The position numbers were made by a program, and so were the translations under genes. Under the pieces are notes generated by a model that saw nothing but the letters and a program-made list of their open reading frames with translations, searched no databases and was not told the DNA's origin. From contig CALULC010000005.1 of assembly GCA_944321385.1 (NCBI GenBank), positions 1-40,782 on the forward strand: DNA of 40,782 nucleotides. The letters are read 5' to 3'. Position 1 is the stretch's first letter, and every line of letters begins with the position of its first letter. Positions 5,833-38,595 of this stretch are shown here, one piece after another. The DNA comes from an uncultured Atopobiaceae bacterium (GTDB taxonomy: Bacteria > Actinomycetota > Coriobacteriia > Coriobacteriales > Atopobiaceae).

Positions 5833-6330
5833 ATGGCCAAGGAATCGAGCTTTGACGTCGTGTCCGTCGTGGACATGCAGGAGGTTGACAACGCCTGCCA
5901 GCAGGCCGCTCGTGAGCTCACGCAGCGATACGACCTCAAGGGCACGGGCTCTACGCTCGAGCTCTCCAAGAAGGACGGGGTCTTCAAGATCTCCGCTCCC
6001 TCCGAGTTCGTTGCCTCCCAGGTCCGTGACATCCTGGGCACCAAGCTCGTCAAGCGCGGCGTCGACCTCACCGCGGTGCGTTGGGCGGATCCCGTGGCCG
6101 CCTCGGGCATGAGCGTCCGTCAGACGGGCACCGTAATCCAGGGCATCGACCAAGACACCGCCAAGAAGATCGCCAAGGACATCCGTGACCTCAAGCTCAA
6201 GGCCAAGGCCACCGTCGAGGGCGACAAGCTCCGCGTGAGCTCCGCTTCGAAGGACGTCCTGCAGTCCGTCATCTCCGAGCTCAGTCAGCGTGACTACGGC
6301 CAGCCCCTGCAGTTTGTCAACTACCGCTAG
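5833..6330 (+). CDS. yajQ: YajQ family nucleotide-binding protein (UPF0234)
   Basis: This 165-residue protein matches the YajQ family along its whole length: an opening SSFDVVS-like segment, VDMQEVDNA, a central RYDLKG, and the closing QPLQFVNYR typical of the family. YajQ proteins have two RNP-like folds and bind nucleotides. A Xanthomonas member is a cyclic-di-GMP effector, but the role in actinobacteria is not established. An AAGGAG ribosome-binding site lies seven bases before ATG 5833, which fixes the start. It is followed after 13 bases by rimO. Confidence 0.92.
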   Translation: MAKESSFDVVSVVDMQEVDNACQQAARELTQRYDLKGTGSTLELSKKDGVFKISAPSEFVASQVRDILGTKLVKRGVDLTAVRWADPVAASGMSVRQTGTVIQGIDQDTAKKIAKDIRDLKLKAKATVEGDKLRVSSASKDVLQSVISELSQRDYGQPLQFVNYR

Positions 6331-38398: not shown

Positions 38399-38447
38399 GA
38401 GGCAGTATTTTGGCCCTCCGGTGTCAGTTATTGCCTCGTTTGTGTGG
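38399..38447. repeat. Left terminal inverted repeat
   Basis: A 49-base arm beginning GAGGCAGTATTTTGG. It matches the complement of the right arm at 44 of 49 positions. Confidence 0.85.
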
Positions 38448-38546
38448 ACAGGTGTAAAAGTGGCATAAGACATCAAAGCAATAGGAATTGTTATCTGGGA
38501 CGATGCGGGAGAGTTTTGACGTGGAGGCGGATTGGGGAGAGAATTG

Positions 38547-38595
38547 CCACACAAACGAGCCTCAAACTGACACCGAAGGGCCAAAATACTGCCTC
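38547..38595. repeat. Right terminal inverted repeat
   Basis: A 49-base arm ending in CCAAAATACTGCCTC. It is complementary to the left arm with five mismatches. Confidence 0.85.

Follow-up and report, generated by a model that had tools for sequence, protein, structure and literature searches.

A dispersed, rigidly spaced inverted-repeat element family in gut Olsenella-like bacteria, with copies flanking a gene for a nuclease-like protein

The window, meaning here the whole stretch of 40,782 bp that was analysed (contig C5 of genome G000, which is 76.5% complete), contains an isochorismatase-domain gene (PF00857; 37758..38315, minus strand) and, divergent from it, a gene encoding an MGMT-like protein (6-O-methylguanine DNA methyltransferase, DNA-binding domain, PF01035; 38627..38941, plus strand). 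The first gene is syntenic across most of the genus and the second is syntenic with or without the element that separates them here. This intergenic element is an inverted repeat of 197 bp, whose arms of 49 nt each (38399..38447, plus strand, and 38547..38595, minus strand) are complementary at 44 of the 49 positions (90%) and leave 99 nt between them. The mismatches comprise a cluster of four at arm positions 32-34 and 36, and a fifth at position 20. A preliminary description of this DNA had reported the 197-bp element with 49-bp inverted ends, the clustered mismatches and the location in non-coding DNA between two genes; the arm alignment bore out the first of these, and the other two were also confirmed. 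A scan of the 40,782 bp for such structures (arm score of at least 16, span of at most 300) gave this repeat and no other, and when folded as single-stranded DNA it has an energy 9.5 s.d. below that of shuffled sequences.

Arm alignment and family comparison divide the left arm, on the plus strand, into a tip, GAGGCAG (38399-38405), a variable part (38406-38421), a box, TGTCAGTTA (38422-38430; family form TGTCACTTT), and an inner box, CCTCGTTTGTGTG (38434-38446), and the right arm is an inverted copy of it. The core (99 nt, 38448..38546), to which no strand is assigned, drifts between orthologs at about the rate of the flanks and cannot be aligned between most paralogous copies. It holds a central CCAG-type motif (38491..38500, assigned to the minus strand), read as TTATCTGGGA on the plus strand and TCCCAGATAA on the minus strand, whose distance to both ends is fixed throughout the family.

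The genome sample included one genome per species, some of them incomplete, and 31 genomes of the genus. Used alone, the window arms matched several further places in G000 as well as five congeners, and a degenerate arm pattern found matches in 7 of the 31 genus genomes, G000 included, versus none for the reversed control pattern. The closest named matches of the pattern were uncultured Olsenella / Atopobiaceae genomes. The repeat is therefore not unique, a point that the preliminary description had left to a comparison with the same and related genomes: copies are present elsewhere in G000 and in congeners, at least 13 in the incomplete G000 and at least 22 in one relative, and copy number differs widely among species. 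Fifty-four elements were read with their surroundings, 12 of them from G000, the thirteenth of this genome having come from the exact-end scan described below. All follow one plan, namely a GAGGCAG-type tip, 16 variable nt, TGTCACTTT, a spacer, CCTCGT(T/C)TG(T/A)G(T/G)G, the core and the reverse complement. They lie next to unrelated genes in gaps of all three kinds, convergent, divergent and co-directional, convergent gaps being about as frequent as divergent ones, and most copies sit at loci common to several genomes. The window repeat thus belongs to a family of rigidly spaced DNA elements that is dispersed in gut Olsenella-like bacteria.

Concerning this spacing, the total length in the 54 elements is 186-187 or 196-199 bp, with no other values. 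Where the central motif, usually CCCAG(A/T)T, is clearly recognised, one end lies 101-102 nt away and the other either 96 nt (long class) or 85 nt (short class). A scan of the 31 genomes that took no such geometry for granted, for exact GTGTCAC...GTGACAC ends with any span of 133-162 permitted, gave the same two-peaked pattern, with peaks one helical turn apart: among the 75 places listed, 15 had spans of 142-143 and 59 had spans of 152-155, so that 74 of 75 fell within the two peaks. The remaining match, of 140 bp in G026, is chance-like. The nominal P value of this clustering, 1e-50, is overstated, as orthologs are not independent, but the two peaks are evident. Among 27 pairs of orthologs of equal length, tips and boxes were 94-97% identical and the central 20 nt 89%, with 80% for the flanks and 78% for the remaining core. 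The CAG-type motif keeps its distance to both ends while the remaining core drifts until it is unalignable.

At the window locus itself, most relatives keep the isochorismatase and MGMT-like gene pair without the element, and carrier and empty alleles both exist. G024, G004, G025 and G006 carry elements of 197-198 bp there, with cores that cannot be aligned with that of the window and with the CAG-type motif at about the same position in the centre. The comparison of empty sites, proposed in the preliminary description, did find empty alleles, but these differ from the carriers by more than the element and no clean target-site duplication was recognised; hence, insertion is not demonstrated by it. 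In G019, the same gap contains a different inverted repeat (GCGATTGGGCG...CACCCAATCGC), which is like the family found beside a paralog of the partner gene (see below) in that genome (locus L155). It should also be mentioned that near-identical elements occur in four otherwise divergent species (G025:C1:490871, G020:C34:160471, G002:C1:284583 and G014:C20:2744), and further near-identical pairs were seen between G008 and G006 and between G012 and G020; either horizontal transfer or unusual conservation of the locus could account for this.

The two arms of an element resemble each other in a position-specific way. When one representative per locus was taken and its left and right arms were compared with shuffled pairings, agreement within elements was above the shuffled level over positions 13-23 and over 36-48, the inner box, with the strongest signal at 22, 42 and 45, and was no better than chance at positions 8-12. 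Cores are found replaced or inverted. About 16 loci with orthologous flanks were compared between species, and in 4 of them the core has the opposite orientation with respect to the flanks (L082 of G000 versus G001/G027, L084 of G000 versus G001, L105 of G001 versus G027, and L106 of G001 versus G027/G021). At other loci (for example, L086/L112 and L091/L106), the flanks align at about 90% and the cores are wholly unalignable. Furthermore, the cores of loci L105 and L108 in G001 are 98.9% identical, which indicates that sequence has moved between loci. The copy at L108 cannot be taken as a fresh insertion, since G000 keeps an arm remnant, and nothing more of the element, at that locus. Since loci shared among genomes hold most of the copies, the case for recent movement depends chiefly on this one duplicated pair.

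Some copies of the element are located beside a gene, hereafter the partner gene. In G000 this gene lies between two element copies (G000:C71:5828-6898) and its product has 356 aa. It has a long and a short element on its two sides in G000, G025, G004 and G024, and one element was observed next to it in G001, G027, G014 and G020. A close partner subfamily, defined by at least 57% identity to the G025 protein, was found in nine genomes, with one copy per genome except in G027, where a second, partial copy (G027:C208:6211-6846, 83% identical to the G025 protein) has an element upstream at 5843-5995. Among the 31 genomes, elements are present in 9 of 9 with the close subfamily versus 5 of 22 without it (Fisher P 1e-4, leaving aside the 140-bp match of G026). 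These five are G006, with seven elements, and G002, G003, G012 and G021, with one each. The elements of G006 have a divergent inner box; they are perhaps served by another paralog.

Searches of the partner protein against Pfam, NCBIfam and PADLOC gave no confident family, a sequence search of the PDB gave nothing meaningful and Foldseek alone found no significant match. The AlphaFold model, built on a 58-sequence alignment, has a pTM of 0.88, and other fold comparisons matched residues 1-184, the N-terminal domain, to the AbiEi antitoxin (6y8q; Z 8.1) and the C-terminal domain to PD-(D/E)XK nucleases, DrdV, TnsA and Card1/Can2 among them. These last matches are individually weak (Z about 4-6.6), and values below 8 can reflect a common arrangement, so the nuclease assignment also rests on the conservation of E192 and D239, both invariant, and of H264, nearly so, and on weak profile matches to DUF559 and MTES_1575. 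The partner is thus modelled as an AbiEi-antitoxin-like domain joined to a predicted PD-(D/E)XK (Vsr/DUF559-like) nuclease domain. The preliminary description had also raised the search for a transposase with the same ends; in these partly incomplete genomes, the only unit found with such ends encodes this nuclease-like protein. The adjacency of element copies to an uncharacterised nuclease-like gene suggests a previously undescribed repeat/nuclease partnership. No description of the association was found in the open-access papers searched.

The closest known arrangement is that of REPINs, doublets of REP sequences, and RAYTs, the REP-associated tyrosine transposases (PMC3116915, PMC2817692, PMC3733652). 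As in that system, the doublets are inverted, intergenic and dispersed, their arms can form hairpins and prefer a given spacing, copies flank a single-copy partner gene, each partner lineage has its own repeat, and single-arm remnants occur. However, REPIN arms carry a GTAG (or CGTC) tag, whereas the arms described here are of about 49 nt, lack the tag and begin with the family tip GAGGCAG, and the fixed total length, the conserved central CAG motif and the unalignable cores also set this family apart. The defining feature of the REPIN/RAYT system is an HUH/Y1 transposase as partner, and membership fails on it because the partner here is an AbiEi-like and PD-(D/E)XK protein. Y1_Tnp had no match among 58 members of the partner family. 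A Y1/RAYT transposase encoded elsewhere was also considered as the partner and rejected: Y1 genes are present in 28 of the 31 genus genomes, were not found near elements, and their distribution does not follow that of the element. TIRtrons/TIRYT, in which the long terminal inverted repeats around a gene can also make up a dispersed family (PMC3733652), resemble the flanked partner gene, but their transposase is of the HUH type. Concerning the protein, the weak profile matches and the conserved E, D and H, which fit a Vsr-like site, recall Vsr/EDxHD-type homing endonucleases and DUF559 / MTES_1575 nucleases; unlike these, it is fused to an AbiEi-like domain and tied to dispersed inverted repeats. 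Its predicted fold in residues 1-184 is like the AbiEi antitoxin (6y8q) and Rv2827c (1zel), and differs from both in carrying a nuclease-like C-terminal domain.

Regarding these data, the reading we prefer, with a probability of roughly 0.6, is that the window repeat is a REPIN-like, non-autonomous inverted-repeat element of a two-part system whose partner is the predicted AbiEi-like/PD-(D/E)XK nuclease and not an HUH transposase. The partner protein could bind the conserved boxes in both arms and bring the arms together, and such synapsis is proposed as the cause of the 10-bp, one-helical-turn step in length. It might then nick or cut at the central CAG motif, and repair of the break, with the other arm or a further copy as template, would homogenise the arms, sometimes invert the core, sometimes swap it, and occasionally copy the element to a new site. 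A mechanism of this kind would explain the matched arms, the inverted and swapped cores, the fixed spacing and the long persistence at shared loci. REP-type repeats have so far been tied to HUH transposases, and here a second, unrelated protein is linked to dispersed inverted doublets. From the rigid spacing, in turn, follows a specific prediction on how the two arms would synapse, which can be tested.

The strongest rival is a retained, non-mobile binding site, in which arms and centre would be fixed operators for the AbiEi-nuclease protein, selected at each locus for the benefit of the host (for example, in genome organisation or in the control of replication or defence), with little or no mobility. 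It accounts for the preserved geometry of the elements that G024, G004, G025 and G006 have at the window locus despite an unalignable core, for boxes conserved above the flanks and for the shared loci that hold most copies; still, we regard it as rather unlikely, because most congeners have no element at the window locus, two loci of G001 hold a near-identical pair and copy number varies widely between species. The preliminary description had called the element MITE-like, and its idea of a repeated, non-autonomous element is upheld in outline by the many dispersed copies, by the carrier and empty alleles at the window locus and by the gene flanked by the same ends. The family is not an ordinary MITE in other respects: the cores are mostly unrelated and unalignable, the total length takes no values other than 186-187 or 196-199 bp, and the gene enclosed by the ends encodes no recognisable transposase. 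In addition, no target-site duplication was recognised, in a comparison of carrier and empty flanks that differ too much for certainty, and a fixed central motif is unexpected for a MITE. Descent from an insertion sequence now lost or unsampled is consequently improbable, even if the long terminal inverted repeats, the intergenic position and the dispersed copies would suit it.

Slightly less probable still is an invertible switch, in which a site-specific recombinase flips the core and turns flanking genes on or off. The four loci with inverted cores, from a total of about 16, and the matching of the inner arm box, where a crossover would be expected, speak for such a switch. Nevertheless, profile searches found no serine recombinase in G000, G001 and G027 and only two tyrosine recombinases in G025, the core evolves like the flanks, and convergent gaps hold the element about as often as divergent ones. 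Serine and tyrosine recombinases were judged unlikely as invertases, given that their profile distribution does not track the element. Least credible is the other suggestion of the preliminary description, a structured RNA hairpin that insulates or regulates the neighbouring genes, the MGMT-like gene in particular. The strong fold and the covariation of the arms agree with an RNA. However, the element is placed without regard to gene context, in convergent, divergent and co-directional gaps by unrelated genes, and most relatives keep the gene pair without it, so control of the MGMT-like gene was not upheld. In addition, the core inverts, the arms have boxes of invariant sequence, their agreement at positions 8-12 is at chance level, and an Rfam search of 11 loci gave only weak matches far below the gathering score.

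The partner gene belongs to a broader family, present in 65 of 149 sampled genomes of the class and in 28 of 78 genera, which with few exceptions belong to the same order; the names Coriobacteriales and Eggerthellaceae for this distribution are our inference from the named Olsenella / Atopobiaceae matches. Around 59 paralogs in the genus, 22 inverted repeats lie within 500 bp versus 0.7 expected, and the surrounding 582 kb has 7. About two thirds of the sampled paralogs have no inverted repeat above the threshold, which overlooks short or decayed repeats. In other genera, 10 of 13 further paralog loci have an inverted repeat under a laxer threshold, and the sequence of the arms differs between paralog types. 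Beside the paralogs at L195, L197, L201 and L208, short REP-like palindromes (e.g. GGACCCAAATCCGGATTTGGGTCC), repeated or in arrays, take the place of a single long inverted repeat.

These observations raise a wider, tentative proposal, to which we give less credit than to the two-part system itself: an order-wide Coriobacteriales class of mobile or self-homogenising elements, each with its own AbiEi-PD-(D/E)XK nuclease that would synapse the arms, cut the central CAG and spread or invert cores by break repair and not by transposition. A second, unrelated protein tied to such doublets, with many diversified gene-element pairs in one order, would mean that partnerships between repeat and protein have arisen more than once, and would offer a natural set of protein/site pairs for study.

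A second family was traced from one of the paralogs. It comprises 15 solo elements in G018, G016, G009 and G015, each of 130-131 bp; nearly every one has a CAG-type motif close to its midpoint, and the partner proteins from two of these genomes are 76% identical. Within each half of these elements (L205 5121-5253, L287 and others), the arm motif recurs in inverted orientation, so that as many as four copies of it surround the central CAG. Finally, two 131-bp elements of this family in G018 (L289 and L290, on contigs C11 and C10) differ at about one base, as a result of either duplication or assembly overlap.
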